Shown here piece after piece: positions 1 to 7,363 of a DNA stretch of 7,363 nucleotides. Position 1 is the first letter of the stretch; each line of letters begins with the position of its first letter. Both the position numbers and the translations under genes were made by a program. Origin of the DNA: Candidatus Heimdallarchaeota archaeon (lineage in GTDB: Archaea; Asgardarchaeota; Heimdallarchaeia; Heimdallarchaeales; Heimdallarchaeaceae); contig JAUVXQ010000057.1 in the NCBI GenBank assembly GCA_030603505.1, positions 1 to 7,363 of the forward strand, given 5' to 3'. A model generated the notes under the pieces. That model searched no databases. It saw only the letters and a list, made by a program, of their open reading frames with translations, and was not told the origin of the DNA.

Positions 1-595
1 ATCTTTGTAACTCTCCTCCTGAAGTAAATGTAGCAATAATTCCTTCCAGAAAACTGGAGTATTTAGGAGAAGGAGATCGAAGCGAAGCTTCACTAAGAGC
101 ATGTACTATATCGTAACCGAATACATGAATGTCTCTAGATATTTTTTTAGCATCTTTAACTATTGCCTCACCAATTTTTTCCCTTGATAGAGAAAGAAAA
201 ATCTTATCCGGTGTTACACCTGCAGATGCCATTGCAGTCATATAACTTGCAGCAGTAGGTAATGCTGCTTCTAGTTTTCTTTTTCTTTCACCTACCAAAT
301 AACTTGGGTAGACCCAAGTGAACACAAACATTGTTACTAAAATCAATATTGGAAGCATTATGACTAAAATCCATGAGAACGTAGTAACAGCGATTTTAAT
401 TGCTATAAGAAAAACAAGTGATACAATTGATAGAATTACAGCCCAAAATAACCTCACGCTTAAGTACATTCTAAGGCTTTGATCAATACCAGCTTTCCTT
501 AAAGTGGTCTTTAATCCTTCAAATTCCGCGAGATAAGGTTCTATAAGTCTACCAATATAAGAGTATGAAATTGATTCAATTATCTTTGAGCTCAT
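1..595 (-). CDS. Type II secretion system F / TadC / ArlJ-family membrane protein (N-terminal part, cut by window edge)
   Basis: Only the first 198 residues are in the window; the frame is open to the left edge. Two strong hydrophobic segments (about residues 48-68 and 73-99) are followed by a conserved-looking cytoplasmic stretch that begins ERKRKLEAALPTAASYMTA (103-121). That stretch continues with AGVTPDKIFLSLS (125-137) and an F..G......GGEL pattern near 182-196, which is the typical shape of the T2SF domain. Family members form the inner-membrane platform on which a secretion ATPase (GspE/TadA/ArlI type) drives assembly of type IV pilus-like filaments, archaella or adhesion pili. The ATG at 595 is preceded by AGAGGA (602-607, reverse strand), a fair Shine-Dalgarno, and a TATA-like element about 60 bases upstream. 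The partner ATPase would be expected outside the window. Whether it serves an archaellum or another pilus cannot be told from this fragment. Confidence 0.8.
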   Translation of the reverse strand, partial: MSSKIIESISYSYIGRLIEPYLAEFEGLKTTLRKAGIDQSLRMYLSVRLFWAVILSIVSLVFLIAIKIAVTTFSWILVIMLPILILVTMFVFTWVYPSYLVGERKRKLEAALPTAASYMTAMASAGVTPDKIFLSLSREKIGEAIVKDAKKISRDIHVFGYDIVHALSEASLRSPSPKYSSFLEGIIATFTSGGELQR

Positions 596-749: not shown

Positions 750-1430
750 ATGATTTTATTTATAATTATACCTTCAGGTGAACTAGAAGAGACTACAAAT
801 AAGGAGATAGCCATAGATCCAAATAATGTTCTGTTAGTGATTTCACACGTACAGAAGAGAATTTTTACTTGGATGGGAGCTAAAGCCAAACCTCAGTCAA
901 AATTCGCATATGCTAGAGAAACCTCAAGAGTAAGGATGGAAATCGGTTATCGTATTACAAGTTTAGATGATTCTGAAACTACACCTGATTTTCTTGATGC
1001 AATTGATGAAGCATGTAAAATTACTTCATCTCAACAAAAGTATACTAAACCCCCCTCAACAGTAACTAAAGGCGAAAAAGAAAAAAATGCACAACTTAAA
1101 GAAGAAAAAGCTACTCAAGAACTTACTAAAAAGAAACAAGTTAAGGAAACGAGTTCTAAGAAGCCATCTCTTGTTCAAAAAAGGAAAACATTAATCGATA
1201 TTAAACAAACCTTAATATCCTTATCAACATTGCCAGCTGTTCAAGGTTCTACACGAGACTATATCATTTTTAAGAATAAGTTGTATATTGCTCCAGACGG
1301 CGCAACAGAGGTTGACAGTGATTCTGTAGTCAGTCTTGCTGATGGATCGTTTATTGCAGATGAATATACTCCACGTTTATATTTAGAAAAAGGAGAAATT
1401 ATTGCAATAGAACTATGGACAAAAAGTTAG
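750..1430 (+). CDS. Gelsolin-like domain protein with C-terminal beta-rich extension
   Basis: Encodes 226 residues from ATG 750; an in-frame ATG at 735 would add five residues but precedes the likely transcription start. Residues about 20-87 look like a single gelsolin/severin/villin-type domain. A strand with DPNNVLLV is followed by the hallmark RIFTWMGAKA pattern (compare I-F-x-W-x-G-x-x-A), an amphipathic helix with alternating K/A/R, a strand, and a terminal TPDFLDAI helix. Residues about 103-147 are a Lys/Glu-rich low-complexity linker. The last ~70 residues look like a compact beta domain (YIIFKNKLYI, GSFIADEYTPRLYLEKG). Gelsolin-fold proteins bind actin, and Asgard archaea are known to encode gelsolin-like actin regulators, so a role in actin dynamics is a reasonable inference. 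The Sec23/24-type gelsolin subfamily is an alternative. The hydrophobic first residues are read as a beta strand rather than a signal peptide. The gene converges on a Rab-like GTPase gene. Confidence 0.6.
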   Translation: MILFIIIPSGELEETTNKEIAIDPNNVLLVISHVQKRIFTWMGAKAKPQSKFAYARETSRVRMEIGYRITSLDDSETTPDFLDAIDEACKITSSQQKYTKPPSTVTKGEKEKNAQLKEEKATQELTKKKQVKETSSKKPSLVQKRKTLIDIKQTLISLSTLPAVQGSTRDYIIFKNKLYIAPDGATEVDSDSVVSLADGSFIADEYTPRLYLEKGEIIAIELWTKS

Positions 1431-1966
1431 ATACTGTTTAACATTTTTCTAGTGACTTCTTTAGCAATCATTTTGTATATATCATCTACTCCTTCCCCAA
1501 GTTTAGCAGAAGATTCCAAAACAGTATATCCTTTTTCTAACCATTGGTCTTCTGCCTCTTTCTTTATTACTTCTCGCTTTTCATCTAAATCTGTTTTATT
1601 ACCAACTATGATAAAAGGTATATCTTTACATTTTTCACTAATCTCATCGATCCAATTTTGTATATGTTCAAAAGATTCTCTTCTAGTTATATCATAAACG
1701 ATTATTGCTCCATGAGCTCCTGTATAATACCTTTTTCTTAGACTAACAAGCTTAGATTGTCCTACAGTATCAAAAACAACTACTTTGATTTTTGAATCTT
1801 CTCCTACAGATACAACTTTACTGTAAAAATCAACACCTAGGGTTGGCAAATAGCTGGATTCAAAACGATTTTGAGTATATCGAATAGCTAAACTTGTTTT
1901 ACCTACCCCATAATCACCAGCATTGATTACTTTGATGATATAAGTAACATTACTAGAAAGATTCAT
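1427..1966 (-). CDS. Rab/Ras-like small GTPase
   Basis: A 179-residue single-domain GTPase with all five G motifs: P-loop GDYGVGKTS (17-25), switch I Thr42 in PTLGVDF, DTVGQ (66-70, with the Ras Gln61 equivalent at Gln70), NKTD (123-126) and ESSAK (151-155). The stretches LGVDF, RYYTGA and VYDIT are Rab-like. Differences from standard Rabs are Val instead of Ala in the DxxGQ motif, and SKL instead of ERF immediately after it, which alters switch II. The protein ends in MLNSI without cysteines, so it cannot be prenylated in the Rab manner. Length matches a bare G domain. Eukaryote-like small GTPases are abundant in Asgard genomes and are the main taxonomic clue here; regulators and effectors cannot be told from the sequence. 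The stop codon overlaps that of the convergent gelsolin-like gene. A TATA box about 27 bases upstream indicates a leaderless or nearly leaderless mRNA. Confidence 0.93.
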   Translation of the reverse strand: MNLSSNVTYIIKVINAGDYGVGKTSLAIRYTQNRFESSYLPTLGVDFYSKVVSVGEDSKIKVVVFDTVGQSKLVSLRKRYYTGAHGAIIVYDITRRESFEHIQNWIDEISEKCKDIPFIIVGNKTDLDEKREVIKKEAEDQWLEKGYTVLESSAKLGEGVDDIYKMIAKEVTRKMLNSI

Positions 1967-2094: not shown

Positions 2095-2808
2095 ATGAGC
2101 GAGAATCAACGAAATTTCTCTGATTTAACAATTATAATCCCAACATTGAATGAAGAGCAGACGATAGGATTATTACTAGAAAAACTTGAAAAAGACGTCC
2201 CACAATCAACGGTTATCGTATCTGACGACGGATCCAAAGACAAAACAAAAGAAACTGTGGAGAATCATAAAGGATCTATACAAACAAAATTTCTAGATCG
2301 TTCTACAAAAGAAATTCATGGATTAACAATTAGTGTATTGGATGCGATAGAAAGCTGTGACACAGAGTTTTTTGTAGTAATGGATGGGGATTTACAACAT
2401 CCTTCTGAAGTTGTACCTAAATTTCACAAAGTTTTAAGGGAAGGTTATGATTTAGCAGCAGGAAAGAGAATCGAAGTTATTGGAAAATGGCCTCTCCACA
2501 GGAAGATTATGTCTTATGGAGCAATCATGCTAGGGCGCTTTTCACTCATCTTAAGAGGGAGAAATAGAGTAAAGGATGTTATGAGTGGCCTATATGCATC
2601 TAGAACTGAAATATGGAAAAAAGTAATTAAAGAAAAGAAAGGAAGGTTCGCTTTAGAAGGATATAAGGTACTCTTTGATTTCCTACGAATATACAAAACA
2701 AAACTAAAAATCACGCATGTGGATTACGTCTTTGGGACTAGAGATTATGGAGAATCAAAAATAAGTAAAAAAGTTCTCTGGGTATACTTCAAATCCCTTT
2801 TCAAATAG
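2095..2808 (+). CDS. Family 2 glycosyltransferase, dolichol-phosphate mannosyltransferase (Dpm1)-like
   Basis: A 237-residue soluble GT-A glycosyltransferase. It opens with IIIPTLNE (13-20), followed by SDDGSKD (43-49; usually VDDGS), the metal/nucleotide-binding DGDLQHP (97-103), and the late RDYGESKI (216-223) typical of polyprenyl-phosphate sugar synthases. These enzymes transfer mannose or glucose from a nucleotide sugar to dolichyl phosphate on the cytosolic membrane face, feeding N-glycosylation or glycolipid synthesis. No membrane helices are predicted, so this is the short Dpm1-like form without the C-terminal TM pair or GtrA domain. The exact sugar and acceptor cannot be assigned. 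An in-frame TTG directly precedes the ATG and an in-frame stop lies at 2083, so the start is confined to 2092-2095; ATG is preferred. The 3' end overlaps the convergent TrpF-like gene by eight bases. Confidence 0.85.
   Translation: MSENQRNFSDLTIIIPTLNEEQTIGLLLEKLEKDVPQSTVIVSDDGSKDKTKETVENHKGSIQTKFLDRSTKEIHGLTISVLDAIESCDTEFFVVMDGDLQHPSEVVPKFHKVLREGYDLAAGKRIEVIGKWPLHRKIMSYGAIMLGRFSLILRGRNRVKDVMSGLYASRTEIWKKVIKEKKGRFALEGYKVLFDFLRIYKTKLKITHVDYVFGTRDYGESKISKKVLWVYFKSLFK
2760..2773 (-). terminator. Candidate poly-T terminator of the TrpF-like gene
   Basis: Reading the reverse strand beyond the stop at 2801, runs of T6 and T5 occur within about 30-40 bases, inside the 3' end of the opposing glycosyltransferase gene. 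Archaeal RNA polymerase terminates at oligo-T tracts, so this is plausible but unproven. Confidence 0.35.
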
Positions 2809-3508
2809 TAGTGACATCCACTCCGGATAGTGATTCTTTAAAATCATACACGGTTTGAAGGAATTCTTGCATCATAGCAGAATCTTTTATTCCAGTAATT
2901 CTTTCAACGCCTGAAGAAACGTCTACAGCATCTGGTAAGAGATCATGAATGATTTTCCCAACGTTGATAGTTTTAAAACCTCCACCTATAACTAGTGGTT
3001 TTGTAATTTTGCTACGAATATCCCGTATTAATTGAGTGATTCTTTTCTTCTTTTTTATATCTCTCCAACTCTCATCCAATGGTAAATTAAGATTAATAAT
3101 TGAAACAAACTGATCAAGAGTTTCAGCAGCTTTTATTGGGTCTGGATCCAAAATATTTGATTTTAGTGTTTGCTTATCTATGAAGATAGAACCAATTATT
3201 GGAATTGTTATTATAGACTGTAGTTCAATTAGGTTATTTATATCATCAAAGAAATCCCCATTAATTTGAACTATTTGGGGATAACATGTATCAATAGTAT
3301 CAAAAATCTCATTTATTGAGGCAGGTTTTATTTCAGCAACGGTTACACAATTTTTAATATTAGCAAAAATTCTTCTAGCATCAAATTTGCTTACATGTCT
3401 TATTTCATCGAAATCTTCTACAATTACACCAATTGCAAAATCTGAAGAAACATCTACTGATACCGCAGCATCAAAATTTGTTATACCAGATATCTTTGCA
3501 ATCCACAT
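2801..3508 (-). CDS. TrpF-like (phosphoribosylanthranilate isomerase fold) protein, catalytic residues replaced
   Basis: A 235-residue (beta/alpha)8-barrel protein with a clear TrpF outline. AKISGITN (4-11) matches the canonical KICGITN strand, IRHVSKFDARRI (36-47) matches the RY(I/V)SPEDARRI helix start, and VQINGD (80-85) matches VQLHGE. LVIGGGFKTINV (172-183) matches LAGGLxPxNV, and DVSSGVE (196-202) plus GIKD (206-209) is the phosphate-binding region. The general-base Cys of KICGIT is Ser7. The LLD motif carrying the general-acid Asp appears as IIN (138-140), with Asn at the Asp position. The GGTGxxFDW loop is missing. Known TrpF enzymes need both the Cys and the Asp, so ordinary isomerase activity in tryptophan synthesis is doubtful. 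The protein may be a paralogue with another substrate or a non-catalytic binder. No other trp gene is visible nearby. The ATG at 3508 is the only sensible start and sits just before the barrel's first strand. Confidence 0.75.
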   Translation of the reverse strand: MWIAKISGITNFDAAVSVDVSSDFAIGVIVEDFDEIRHVSKFDARRIFANIKNCVTVAEIKPASINEIFDTIDTCYPQIVQINGDFFDDINNLIELQSIITIPIIGSIFIDKQTLKSNILDPDPIKAAETLDQFVSIINLNLPLDESWRDIKKKKRITQLIRDIRSKITKPLVIGGGFKTINVGKIIHDLLPDAVDVSSGVERITGIKDSAMMQEFLQTVYDFKESLSGVDVTTI

Positions 3509-3717
3509 TGTGGGTTCCTTACAAGACTATTCGCTCCACCTTTTTTAATTCTTTTCTAGACTTAACATTTTGGTTACAAATTATTCATCTTTGAATTAAA
3601 TAGTTTGTTAAAATCAAGCTGAATAACATCCAGAGTTTATCTGAAAATGTTCACATATGTTCTTTGGATATTACAAAAACACTTATTCAAATTATCAAAA
3701 TGTACATGGTTATAAAT
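3509..3717. promoter_or_regulatory. Divergent promoter region between the TrpF-like and Cys-rich genes
   Basis: This gap of about 200 bases carries AT-rich candidates in both directions: GAATTAAAAAA on the reverse strand (about 3542-3552), and TTGAATTAAATAG (3591-3603) and TTATAAAT (3710-3717) on the forward strand. None has clean spacing to a start codon. The palindrome ATGTACAT lies just upstream of the chosen start at 3718. No RNA gene is recognised. Confidence 0.3.
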
Positions 3718-4062
3718 ATGGTAACAAAAGAATCCTATTTGGACTTTAAACTTGAGAAAGCAATAGCGAGGATAAGTACAAGTAGATCTTACAATGATTC
3801 ACCTGTCTATCTAGAAATTTGTAATTGTACATCAAAGGGTGGATGTTTAATCTATGATACTAGAAAGCAATCATATCATGCAAAAGGATCATGTAATCGC
3901 GGTCTTTTGTGTGCGATGTTACAAGAAGATAAACATCATATTAGAATTAAAAGAACAAACCTTCTTAAATTACAAACTTTTGAAAACCTAAAGAATTTAA
4001 CCAATAATGATTCACATGAAGATGACTCTTATAGAAGTTCAACGATCAAGATAGGCGCGTAA
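3718..4062 (+). CDS. Small Cys/His-rich protein of unknown function
   Basis: I do not recognise a family. From ATG 3718 the product has 114 residues. In-frame starts also exist at TTG 3664, ATG 3700 and ATG 3706, and the true start is not settled because no Shine-Dalgarno or well-spaced TATA box supports any of them. The centre holds five cysteines and a histidine in a compact pattern, C-x-C-x5-C-x10-H-x4-C-x5-C (Cys35, 37, 43, 59, 65; His54). A second pair of histidines is at 73-74. This arrangement could bind zinc or another metal. The N-terminal 30 residues are helical and charged; the C-terminal 25 are polar and probably disordered (NNDSHEDDSYRSS). No signal peptide or membrane segment is seen. 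It is followed by a T6 tract and then the promoter of the glutamyl-tRNA synthetase gene, so it is probably a single-gene transcript. Confidence 0.6.
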   Translation: MVTKESYLDFKLEKAIARISTSRSYNDSPVYLEICNCTSKGGCLIYDTRKQSYHAKGSCNRGLLCAMLQEDKHHIRIKRTNLLKLQTFENLKNLTNNDSHEDDSYRSSTIKIGA

Positions 4063-4179: not shown

Positions 4180-5901
4180 ATGAGCTATGATTCTGAAGAA
4201 GTTATTTTTAAAGAAACGATACTTAACGCTTATAAATACAAAAAAGCTAATACCAAAATTGTCACACAAAAAATCTTCGCATATTATCCAGAGCTTCGAA
4301 AAGAAGCAAAAAGTCTTCTTCCAAAGATTCAAGAAAAAGTAGAGGAAATTAACTCATACTCTTGGGAAAAAATCGAAGAAATAGTAACAAATAACTATTT
4401 AGAAGATATTGAAATTGAAGAAAAAAAGCGAGATTATCTCCCTGAAATGAAAGATGCTGTCAAGGGAGAGGTGAAAGTTCGTTACCCTCCTGAACCCTCT
4501 AAAGCACCTCATATAGGACAGATGTTATCTTTTTGTATTAATCACTTAGTCGCTGAAAGATATGAAGGTAAAAGAGTGCTAAGGTTTGATGATACTAATC
4601 CTGACACTGTGAAAAGCGAATTTTATGAACAATTCAGAGATGCTATATCATGGCTTGGTTTACCAATTGATGAAGAAATTATTGCATCTAATCATATGAA
4701 TACATATTACACTAAAGCGAGAGAAATGCTGGAAAGTGAGCAAGCTTATGTTTGTAAATGCGACAGGGAAACAATGACAAAACTTAGATCGGAACAAAAA
4801 CGCTGCTCTTGTCATATAAATCATTCAACCGAAAAAAATATAGAGTTATATGAGGAAATTCTTGAAAATAATTTTTCCCCAGGAGAGGTTGTAATAAGAT
4901 TAAAAGGGGATATGGAATCGCAGAATTCTGCTTTGAAAGACCCTGTGTTACTGCGTATATCAGACACGCCTCACTGTTTACAAGGAGACAAATATATTCT
5001 TTGGCCAATGTATGATTTCGAGTCACCAATAATGGAACATATAACAAAAGTAACACATATTTTTAGAAGTATAGAATTTGGTAAAATGCGAGAAGAGTTA
5101 CAACAAACCATAGCAAAAAGACTAGGGTTAAATATTCCAAAAATCTATGAATATAGTCGTTTCAATATTATTGGTGCTCCTACAAAGGGAAGAGTGATAC
5201 GCGAGTTAGTGGAAAAAGGAATAGTTTCTGGATGGGATGATATAAGACTGGTAACCTACCAAGCACTGAAGAAAAGAGGAATACAACCACAAACAATAAC
5301 AGAGATTATAAAAAAAGTAGGTACAACAAAATCTACAACAACAATAGATTGGACGCTAATTAATGCAATAAACAGGAAGATAATTGAACCCACAACCAAG
5401 CATTTCTTCTTTGTTCGTAATCCAATCAAGATAGATATTATTAACCCAGAAAAAATAACTAAACAAATATCAGTTCATCCTTACAATAGTTCACTAGGAA
5501 CAAGAGAAATAAACATTTACAGCAGATTATATTTGGATGGAGATGATAGTCAACTCATCCAACCAGGAAAGATATTAAGAATGAAAGATCTTTACAATAT
5601 TAAAATAATAGAACAAAAAGGACCTGGAGAATTTGAAGCTGAAGTATTAGGATATGAAATGCTTAATGATGTTCAGAAAATTCAATGGGTGTCTGAACCT
5701 GTTAATGTGTATGTAAAAAAAGCTGATATGTTATATTTAAATAATGGAATAAACAAAGATAGCTTGAAATTTATCCAAGGATATGGAGAAAAACATTTAA
5801 TGGAACTAGAAGTAGGTTCAATAGTTCAATTGGAACGTTTTGGATATGTAATAATAACAGATAAGAATTATAAAATAAGCATGAACTACATTCATGGGTG
5901 A
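4180..5901 (+). CDS. gltX: Glutamyl-tRNA synthetase, archaeal/eukaryotic type
   Basis: The 573 residues match the usual ~550-570 of archaeal GluRS. The enzyme charges tRNA-Glu and, in archaea without GlnRS, the archaeal non-discriminating form also mischarges tRNA-Gln for the GatDE amidotransferase. The order is the archaeal N-terminal helical domain (1-~95, with YYPELRKEA), then a class I catalytic core with VRYPPEPSKAPHIGQ (100-114) and FDDTNP (136-141). Next are a CKC...CSC cysteine set (192, 194, 209, 211) that probably binds zinc, DPVLLR (254-259), THIFRSIE (292-299) and GWDDIRL (351-357). The C-terminal beta-barrel anticodon domain includes IDWTLINAINRKIIEP (389-404) and a late IQWVSEP. 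The two class I signatures are degenerate: HIGH reads HIGQ, and the KMSKS loop reads APTKG (333-337), keeping only its second Lys. Everything else looks intact, so an active enzyme is likely. It is the first gene of an operon with the RING-like gene starting five bases later. Confidence 0.9.
   Translation: MSYDSEEVIFKETILNAYKYKKANTKIVTQKIFAYYPELRKEAKSLLPKIQEKVEEINSYSWEKIEEIVTNNYLEDIEIEEKKRDYLPEMKDAVKGEVKVRYPPEPSKAPHIGQMLSFCINHLVAERYEGKRVLRFDDTNPDTVKSEFYEQFRDAISWLGLPIDEEIIASNHMNTYYTKAREMLESEQAYVCKCDRETMTKLRSEQKRCSCHINHSTEKNIELYEEILENNFSPGEVVIRLKGDMESQNSALKDPVLLRISDTPHCLQGDKYILWPMYDFESPIMEHITKVTHIFRSIEFGKMREELQQTIAKRLGLNIPKIYEYSRFNIIGAPTKGRVIRELVEKGIVSGWDDIRLVTYQALKKRGIQPQTITEIIKKVGTTKSTTTIDWTLINAINRKIIEPTTKHFFFVRNPIKIDIINPEKITKQISVHPYNSSLGTREINIYSRLYLDGDDSQLIQPGKILRMKDLYNIKIIEQKGPGEFEAEVLGYEMLNDVQKIQWVSEPVNVYVKKADMLYLNNGINKDSLKFIQGYGEKHLMELEVGSIVQLERFGYVIITDKNYKISMNYIHG
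5897..5901 (+). promoter_or_regulatory. Shine-Dalgarno of the solenoid-RING gene
   Basis: GGTGA overlaps the gltX stop codon and lies five bases before ATG 5907. It matches the archaeal anti-SD, so ATG 5907 is favoured over the in-frame GTG at 5898, which falls inside the SD itself. It implies translation from a shared mRNA. Confidence 0.55.
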
Positions 5902-5906
5902 ACAAT

Positions 5907-6863
5907 ATGGCAACAGAACCAGCATTAGTGATTTTTTTAATATTTGTTGCTGTAGCTTTAATAATAGCTGCAAGAACAGCAATAAAGAGTCAAAAGAAAC
6001 AAAGAGCACCTAAAAGAATGTATAGACCTTATATGCCAGTTTCTCCTCCAAATCAGCAACAAAGTTCAACAAGACCTACATCGCCTACAATCACAACTCC
6101 ACCAAGAAGGCAACAAGCATCTGTTGCAAGACCTTCTACTTCTAGCAGTTCACAATCAAGAGCAGATTACGCTTCTGCTGACGAGTATTTTAGAGCAGGA
6201 TTGTATGATAGAGCGAAGGATGAATATTTGAAAACTGGTCGTATTTTTGGAGCTGCAAAGTCTATTGCAGCTAAAGGCAAAGATTCAACCCAAGATGCTA
6301 TAGCAATCATCTCACGTTATGCTCCTGAAAGGGAAGATGAGATGGTTAGGAACCTTTCTCGATATTTCTTTGATAGTGGTGATATCGAAGTTTCAGCTTT
6401 AATTCTATTTGAATATGGTAAAAAAGATGAAGCTGAAGCCGTTTTAGCAGCTATTGGGAAAACTCTTGATGACATCACAGAAGGGAAAGTCGTTGAAGTT
6501 AGTCAAATTCCACCGAGTTCTACTTCATCTGTAGATGAACTATCAACTTCTCAAACCTTTGATGAGTTATCAAAAATAGTAGAAGGAGATACTGATAAAG
6601 TTGTAGAAGTAGAAAAATTTGATGCTGATACTAAAACAAAAAAGAAAGTAAAAGCACGTCAGCCACTAAAAGTTGCAACCTCGGATTTGGATGAAAGGTG
6701 TAGCGTTTGTATGTCTCATATTAAAGCAGGCGATAATTTTATCAGATGTCCATTCTGTGACACACCATCACATTATTCACATATTATAGAGTGGATAAAA
6801 GTTAAACCACAATGTCCAAATTGTAAACAAAAGCTAATAGCCAGAATGTTTGAAGGACAATAA
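5907..6863 (+). CDS. Membrane-anchored TPR-like solenoid protein with C-terminal RING-type zinc finger
   Basis: 318 residues. One hydrophobic helix at 5-22 is followed by a basic stretch (SQKKQRAPKR), which predicts an external N-terminus and a cytoplasmic body. Residues 40-86 are a Pro/Gln/Ser/Thr-rich disordered linker. Residues about 87-185 are helical with a TPR-like signature (ADEYFRAGLYDRAKDEY, then RYFFDSGDIEVSALILFEYG and KDEAEAVLAAIG). An acidic, Ser-rich linker follows (about 190-258). The end is a zinc finger with ligands C265, C268, C281, C284, H289, H292, C303, C306 and RING-like hydrophobic spacing (GDNFIRCPFC, HIIEWI, QCPNC). RING domains recruit E2 enzymes in ubiquitin transfer, and Asgard archaea are known to have ubiquitin systems. 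An E3-like or protein-protein adaptor role at the membrane is an inference. The solenoid-plus-RING order recalls Vps/HOPS-type subunits, but no beta-propeller is present. It lies in an operon with gltX. Confidence 0.75.
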   Translation: MATEPALVIFLIFVAVALIIAARTAIKSQKKQRAPKRMYRPYMPVSPPNQQQSSTRPTSPTITTPPRRQQASVARPSTSSSSQSRADYASADEYFRAGLYDRAKDEYLKTGRIFGAAKSIAAKGKDSTQDAIAIISRYAPEREDEMVRNLSRYFFDSGDIEVSALILFEYGKKDEAEAVLAAIGKTLDDITEGKVVEVSQIPPSSTSSVDELSTSQTFDELSKIVEGDTDKVVEVEKFDADTKTKKKVKARQPLKVATSDLDERCSVCMSHIKAGDNFIRCPFCDTPSHYSHIIEWIKVKPQCPNCKQKLIARMFEGQ

Positions 6864-6948: not shown

Positions 6949-7363
6949 ATGGTTTTTCTCCCTCCGTTTTCAGAAGAGATTTTTAGTGAATATATAAATG
7001 AAGAAATACAAACACAAATCGCAGGATTTGATCTTACTACAAAAGAAGTTATGAAACTTAAGAAAGGAGGGATTCTAGATTTTGATAATAATAAAAGACA
7101 TATTCCAGAATATAAAAATATTAATTCCAAAGGAAATAAATGGATTTTGAAACCTGGAGGATATTTAATTCGATATAATGAGATTATACAAATACCTAGA
7201 AATTCTATAGGTCTAGTCCTTCCACGTTCTAGTTTGATGCGTTGTGGAGCTACTCTTTGTTCAGCTGTATGGGATCCAGGATATAAAGGAAGAGGAATTG
7301 GTTTGTTGATCGTTACAACTAAAATCACATTATATGAAAATACGAGAATAGCTCAAATTATCC
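6949..7363 (+). CDS. dut: Archaeal dUTPase / dCTP deaminase family protein (3' end outside the window)
   Basis: 138 residues are visible, probably all but the last 15-30. The protein resembles the archaeal dUTPase group typified by Methanocaldococcus MJ1102. It has an early IAGFDLTTKEV (24-34), ILDFDNNKRHIPEY (42-55), a KPGGYLIRYNE strand (68-78), LPRSSLMRCGATLCSAVWDPGY (91-112) and a closing RIAQII. The RSS and DPGY motifs form the nucleotide-binding active site of the trimeric fold. The enzyme hydrolyses dUTP to dUMP and diphosphate, keeping uracil out of DNA and supplying dUMP for thymidylate synthesis. Some relatives are dCTP deaminases or bifunctional. The short form and likeness to MJ1102 favour dUTPase, but the deciding C-terminus is cut off. 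It has its own promoter and is probably not part of the gltX transcript. Confidence 0.85.
   Translation, partial: MVFLPPFSEEIFSEYINEEIQTQIAGFDLTTKEVMKLKKGGILDFDNNKRHIPEYKNINSKGNKWILKPGGYLIRYNEIIQIPRNSIGLVLPRSSLMRCGATLCSAVWDPGYKGRGIGLLIVTTKITLYENTRIAQII

Follow-up and report, generated by a model that had tools for sequence, protein, structure and literature searches.

What role does an archaeal protein play that combines a transmembrane (TM) helix, a helical-repeat solenoid and a C-terminal finger with eight putative zinc ligands? The question is raised by a gene in a 7,363-nucleotide stretch of the genome of Candidatus Heimdallarchaeota archaeon (contig JAUVXQ010000057.1; the whole stretch is hereafter the window). 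A preliminary description suggested either a membrane E3-like factor or a primitive trafficking adaptor. Our results support the former, and we postulate that in Heimdallarchaeia the protein probably acts as a RING-type E3 ubiquitin ligase tethered to the membrane, with a solenoid that selects substrates. This is suggested by the RING model of its finger, by the kinship of the finger with RINGs of Asgard ubiquitin operons, and by the retention of the positions expected to contact E2.

The open reading frame (ORF) runs from the ATG at position 5907 to the stop codon at 6861-6863 and encodes 318 residues, as read directly from the window. Homology searches retrieved 60 homologous protein clusters at E <= 1e-3 (identity 43-98%), hence this is more than a chance ORF. 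An AlphaFold2 (AF2) model was built on an alignment of 53 sequences, namely the window protein and 52 of the 60 homologs, with eight fragments or near-duplicates excluded. Together, ORF reading and model bear out the N-terminal TM helix, disordered linker, TPR-like solenoid and C-terminal finger of the preliminary description, and add a second disordered linker, between solenoid and finger, that it had not mentioned. The solenoid is made of helices 91-96, 100-121, 125-138, 140-157, 160-170 and 173-181, with a mean predicted local distance difference test score (pLDDT) of 90-97 in ten-residue blocks across residues 91-190; the finger blocks (261-310) reached 93-95. Residues directly after the TM helix are rich in K and R, which by the positive-inside rule fits a probably cytoplasmic C-terminal part.

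The ligands of the finger are C265-x2-C268-x12-C281-x2-C284-x4-H289-x2-H292-x10-C303-x2-C306, the same eight, in order and spacing, that had been described at first. The RING-CH, RING-HC and RING-H2 classes have the ligand orders C4HC3, C3HC4 and C3H2C3. All three are ruled out as the class of this finger by its order, C4H2C2, with HH in 132 of 132 distinct fingers. The order had thus rightly been set apart from RING-HC and RING-H2, while the proposed closeness to RING-CH did not hold: it is archaeal srfp-type RINGs and GATOR2 RINGs that share this layout. Moreover, order and spacing (CxxC-x12-CxxC-x4-HxxH-x10-CxxC) are identical to those of fingers encoded in Asgard ubiquitin operons. Among the 132 fingers, which were gathered by a regular expression fixing the remaining ligands and many of which are close kin, the 12/4 spacing was kept in 129 and the third Cys in 131. 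In the 53-sequence alignment, seven ligand columns are invariant and C306 is kept in 52 sequences; one homolog outside the alignment (P0054) lacks the first CxxC.

Candidate E2-contact residues are V267, W296, P304 and K307. V267 and W296 are present in 53/53 aligned sequences, and position 307 is R in 37 and K in 16. The small RING E3 srfp from the ubiquitin operon of Candidatus Caldiarchaeum subterraneum, whose activity has been reconstituted, displays a RING with shifted C3/H4 plus an extra Cys, in which I30, W58 and R69 matter (PMC5654768). These three correspond to V267, W296 and K307 by motif position, as opposed to an aligned srfp sequence. Sequence and structure searches place the finger among RINGs, and AF2, Foldseek and VIA agree on a predicted RING fold, not the unrelated zinc ribbon that had been named as the alternative outcome; the E2-facing surface was judged from its residues. 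A double zinc ribbon that binds protein or nucleic acid would be in line with weak Pfam matches to Zn_ribbon_6 and DZR, and with the C2H2 zinc-finger arrays that top the raw E-value list of the finger profile through repeated partial matches. We deem it most improbable, given that RING folds head the structure searches with the window protein's form, that P and W are near-invariant and position 307 is mostly K/R across the 132 fingers, and that the same finger occurs beside E2 genes.

Homologs of the same plan (short forms) occur throughout Heimdallarchaeia, often directly behind gltX. Their distribution is based on profile searches of 227 Asgard genomes; a single-sequence contig scan found one locus only. 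A contig from a named relative, 'Candidatus Heimdallarchaeota archaeon 8H_bin2' (L001), was used for comparison; in it, eight window genes are matched in the same order by proteins 92-99% identical. Within the order of this relative, the full profile matches 34 of 35 genomes (E <= 1e-3), some via the finger alone, and the solenoid profile matches 29. Overall, the solenoid profile (A4) has matches in 46 of the 227 genomes, at one place each, 17 of them outside that order. Eight divergent short forms (L027, L028, L029, L031-L034 and L036), 28-35% identical, retain the hydrophobic N-terminus, linker, solenoid and finger. The architecture is therefore present in the relatives of the window's genome, where its absence would have spoken against the proposed function.

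The distribution of the finger points to the ubiquitin system. E2 is present in 35/35 genomes of L001's order and ubiquitin in 33/35, which covers, in relatives of the window's genome, the E2 and ubiquitin part of the check for partner genes suggested at the outset. Across the 227 Asgard genomes, finger (E <= 1e-6) and E2 (E <= 1e-12) co-occur almost perfectly: 160 genomes have both, 58 neither, six the finger alone (G002, G094, G096, G128, G141, G151) and three E2 alone (G085, G098, G107). G002 has a weaker E2 match (1.4e-9); some of the weaker E2 matches may be ESCRT UEV domains. In at least 18 genomes a finger lies less than 1 kb from an E2, and the five such loci that were read out (L099-L103) hold an E2, an E1-like gene and a small finger ORF; L102 and L103 also have a ubiquitin-like gene. 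In L103 the contig ends within the finger gene, which was located via its profile match. The finger belongs to a large Asgard family, found in 166 of the 227 genomes at E <= 1e-6. Matches per genome reach at least 28 (at least 30 in a separate count of G070), these counts being lower bounds, and genomes with any E2 have one to five strong E2 matches.

Other members of this family were also inspected. Many finger hosts of G070 (L104-L133) are proteins with an ectodomain, a TM helix and a C-terminal finger, which may reflect a radiation of membrane RING proteins in archaea, and two tandem G070 proteins (L128) resemble HEAT repeats plus finger by eye. In L001's genome, other fingers end proteins that by eye look like a winged-helix array (L003), a membrane protein with an immunoglobulin-like ectodomain (L004, with Asp in place of Cys as third ligand), a UPF1-like helicase (L005) and a multi-TM protein (L007). 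In six genomes a finger lies in a frame of ~1000 residues, like the L005 helicase, and ~19-22 kb away on the same contig a frame of ~220 residues holds an E2-like gene (G006:C1, G010:C94, G012:C184, G017:C40, G021:C67 and G023:C132).

In the mechanism that we propose, the TM helix would hold the protein at the cytoplasmic face and the linkers would allow both folded parts to swing. The TPR-like solenoid would bind a substrate or partner, and the C-terminal RING would bind an archaeal E2~ubiquitin via V267, W296 and P304. K/R307 would then prime ubiquitin transfer, leading to the ubiquitylation of membrane-located proteins.

Several observations weigh against a ligase. The short-form Foldseek matches are all weaker than E 0.001, the best being 6.5e-3 for a domain of ~50 residues inside a 318-residue model. 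The window protein (P0001) stays under the Pfam cut-offs of zf-RING_2 (20.8/27.3 bits) and Prok-RING_1 (22.1/29.1 bits); among nine relatives scanned, P0056 (27.8 bits) and P0138 (28.3 bits) pass that of zf-RING_2. Among the 132 fingers, a Y or M stands at the position of W296 in six short forms, all divergent, and an F in one long form. Furthermore, the gene lies outside any ubiquitin operon, among gltX, dcd and radA, the co-occurrence of finger and E2 was counted over non-independent genomes and is uncorrected for kinship, and the SEA complex has RINGs of this plan whose role is structural (PMC9646525). The Y/M variants of W296 belong to the L031-L036 group and the F variant is L091; if the W is needed for E2, these forms may have lost or changed their ligase function.

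Two lineages, one of which is called Hodarchaeales in source records, encode a longer form with a TM helix, a solenoid of ~320 residues and the same finger. Fifteen of the 17 solenoid matches outside L001's order lie in open frames of 423-446 residues, all with a finger match on the same contig in a frame of equal length; the other two are partial, and in one of these (G062) the gene is split over two contigs, with TM helix and solenoid on one and the solenoid end and finger on the other. Every one of the 11 long forms read out starts with a hydrophobic helix, followed by a long solenoid and the finger. The long-form model (mean pLDDT 86.6) displays a helix at 3-38 and solenoid helices over 42-359, with a brief disordered segment between these and the finger. 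Most named homologs of L082 carry the label Hodarchaeales, Hodarchaeota or Heimdallarchaeota, and a few carry a broader one (Promethearchaeota, Thorarchaeota). In the second lineage (G056, G057, G059, G061, G062 and G063), gltX is directly upstream in 6/6 genomes. This shared locus argues that short form and gltX-linked long form are orthologs; it has no bearing on kinship with coat proteins. Meanwhile, gltX was not found at the Hodarchaeales-type long forms, neither at 4/4 loci with ~4 kb flanks (L142-L145) nor at three more with shorter flanks.

Two further explanations were weighed. The first is an adaptor like LapB (YciM) of bacteria, a membrane-anchored TPR protein that would use its C-terminal zinc domain to bring substrates to a protease and not to an E2. 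LapB structures are among the long-form Foldseek matches (9up5_A, 2.3e-4) and the window protein has a weak NCBIfam LapB match (E 1e-4). That match scores 21.8 bits against a cut-off of 430, and a finger with eight ligands and a RING fold that co-occurs with E2 makes this reading very unlikely.

The second is a coat or tether scaffold, whose solenoid and RING would be structural as in IFT-A, SEA/GATOR2 and HOPS/CORVET, the RING pairing with another RING and having no ligase activity. Short- and long-form models both display an alpha-solenoid followed by a C-terminal RING, as do Vps11/18/41, SEA/GATOR2 and IFT-A. IFT-A chains fill rows 1-11 of the long-form Foldseek search (E 1.2e-6 to 2.9e-5), with generic TPR proteins matching nearly as well. 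The solenoid profile finds IFT140 (3.3e-6) and IFT144 (4.5e-5), the finger profile finds the GATOR2 RINGs of WDR24 (7.8e-5) and WDR59 (1.1e-4), and GATOR2 chains also rank high in short-form Foldseek. Of the long forms scanned, P0136 alone exceeds the curated cut-off of TPR_IF140-IFT172 (PF24762; 34.8 vs 26.8 bits). The scaffold is a real alternative because the plan of the SEA complex, whose RINGs heterodimerise, is structural (PMC9646525), and because the alpha-COP paper suggested a kinship of COPI coat RINGs with CORVET, HOPS and SEA (PMC4678705); we consider it unlikely. In the alpha-COP paper, the finger of alpha-COP is also reported to match Prok-RING_1 in HHpred (E 0.046).

The case for common descent is less clear. 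In the preliminary description the protein was likened to Vps11/18/41; the solenoid-RING order is indeed shared, but the best matches are IFT-A and GATOR2 chains, the N-terminal beta-propeller of coat and tether subunits is missing, with the TM helix in its position, and the evidence for descent is weak. The VIA Z for the coat-solenoid comparison lies in the noise range for helical repeats, and a sequence control for coat kinship gave no clear support. Vps11/18/41 were not found by title among the VIA matches listed, where according to the tool absence excludes nothing. PF24762 matched in seven of the 227 genomes and, among the controls, in M. jannaschii. Two of the seven were identified: one (G062:C55) is the C-terminal half of the split gene, and the other (G037) is a plain TPR protein without a finger. 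Read in this way, the PF24762 matches speak more for coat kinship, but our weighting of the explanations is unchanged. Membership of the whole family in the IFT TPR family is unsupported, PF24762 also matching outside the TM-solenoid-RING proteins. Misses in this genome search are weak evidence because L083 (G059), at 26.3 of 26.8 bits in hmmscan, was missed by it. HOPS/CORVET and COPI-type homologues in Asgard were reported by Eme et al. 2023 (PMC10307638), in the main text of which a term search found no word beginning with 'ring'; in Hatano et al. 2022 (PMC9192718), such a search found 'ring' only within a reference title. It is a rather doubtful scenario that the solenoid-RING subunits of eukaryotic IFT-A, SEA/GATOR2 and HOPS/CORVET go back to an ancestor to which the Heimdallarchaeia proteins, chiefly the long forms, are cousins lacking a propeller. 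The RING of those subunits would in that case have started in a membrane E3 and given up its ligase function once a beta-propeller joined the chain.

Coming back to the proposed E3 and its surroundings (Table 1), the order gltX-gene-dcd-radA is complete in 18 of 29 short-form loci (L001, L008-L034 and L036, one per genome, with flanks of ~1.5 kb or less except for L001). Six hold part of it, several of these ending at the contig end, L025 has rearranged neighbours, L034 keeps radA alone on the opposite strand, and three lack gltX, dcd and radA in the compared flanks. No ubiquitin operon was found around the gene within the window; in relatives, the flanks were searched only for the genes that adjoin it there.

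Table 1 Position of the gene, the parts of its product and its conserved neighbours in the window
Feature	Position	Strand	Basis and remarks
Membrane-solenoid-RING gene, whole, stop included	5907..6863	+	318 aa; open ORF reading, 60 homologs
Predicted TM helix, residues 5-32	5919..6002	+	AF2 helix 5-32 and sequence
Linker 1, residues 33-81, Pro/Ser/Gln-rich, mostly disordered	6003..6149	+	AF2, 46-81 pLDDT < 50
TPR-like alpha-solenoid, residues 82-191	6150..6479	+	AF2 and solenoid profile
Linker 2, residues 192-260, largely disordered	6480..6686	+	AF2, parts of 194-248 pLDDT < 50
RING-like finger, residues 261-312	6687..6842	+	Sequence, AF2, structure searches, alignment
gltX, conserved upstream neighbour	4180..5901	+	Pfam, synteny; stop 5 bases ahead of the gene's ATG
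dcd-like gene, conserved downstream neighbour, runs off the window	6949..7362	+	Pfam DCD, synteny

Elsewhere in the window, a Ras-family small GTPase (1427-1966, minus strand; Pfam Ras 1.7e-48) is conserved at the same place in L001. Two ORFs with no Pfam match above cut-off (735-1430 and 3664-4062, both plus strand) are also conserved in L001. Three Hodarchaeales-type long forms (L084, L086, L087) have a weak relative of the second ORF nearby (E 3e-5 to 7e-5). The Pfam match of a PRAI-like protein (2801-3508, minus strand) spans only residues 161-218 of 235 (1.4e-12), and this is perhaps a divergent barrel instead of a working TrpF. Positions 2-595 (minus strand) encode a T2SSF/TadC-like membrane protein (1.1e-3, under cut-off), which in L001 starts what by eye is an apparent archaellum or pilus gene row.

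Archaeal RING E3s are already known, and annotation as E3 or RING is not new either, since the names 'E3 ubiquitin protein ligase' and 'RING finger protein' already stand in source records for some of these proteins. Open-licence PubMed Central (PMC) literature showed no TM-solenoid-RING protein of Asgard archaea among the matches listed, and term searches in the text of PMC12993045 and PMC10936438 found nothing on such proteins. Within the searched literature, what is new is the TM-solenoid-RING plan across Heimdallarchaeia in short and long form, its site behind gltX, and the assignment of its finger to a large Asgard family. If archaea proposed to be close to eukaryotes possess a conserved RING that is anchored in the membrane and has a binding solenoid of its own, membrane-directed ubiquitylation would predate eukaryotes. 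Likewise, provided that Asgard fingers are ligases, the combination of few E2s with many E3s is older than eukaryotes, and the long forms make it testable whether solenoid-RING coat subunits started as E3s.

Among known systems, srfp is the sole reconstituted archaeal RING E3 found in the literature searched (PMC5654768). The window protein shares with it a RING-type finger with shifted C3/H4 and extra Cys, counterparts of I30, W58 and R69, and, judging by the E2 and ubiquitin genes of its relatives, probably an archaeal E1/E2/ubiquitin setting. Unlike the small srfp, its finger is fused to a TM helix and a solenoid and adjoins gltX; we therefore call the protein an E3 with an srfp-type RING and not an srfp, as its gene (neighbours gltX and dcd) is outside a ubiquitin operon.

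LapB has the same order of TM helix, TPR and zinc domain, but its zinc domain is a four-Cys rubredoxin-type single site, in contrast to the eight-ligand finger. The proteins of SEA/GATOR2 (Sea2/3/4; WDR24, WDR59, MIOS) share the alpha-solenoid and C-terminal RING, and the CxxC...HxxH layout aligns without gaps to 9dx0_D, whereas they have an N-terminal beta-propeller and structural RINGs (PMC9646525) where our protein has a TM helix and no propeller. Finally, the solenoid of the long form resembles first of all that of IFT-A chains (IFT144, IFT140, IFT122, IFT121), which are far larger proteins (996-1367 residues in the matched chains).
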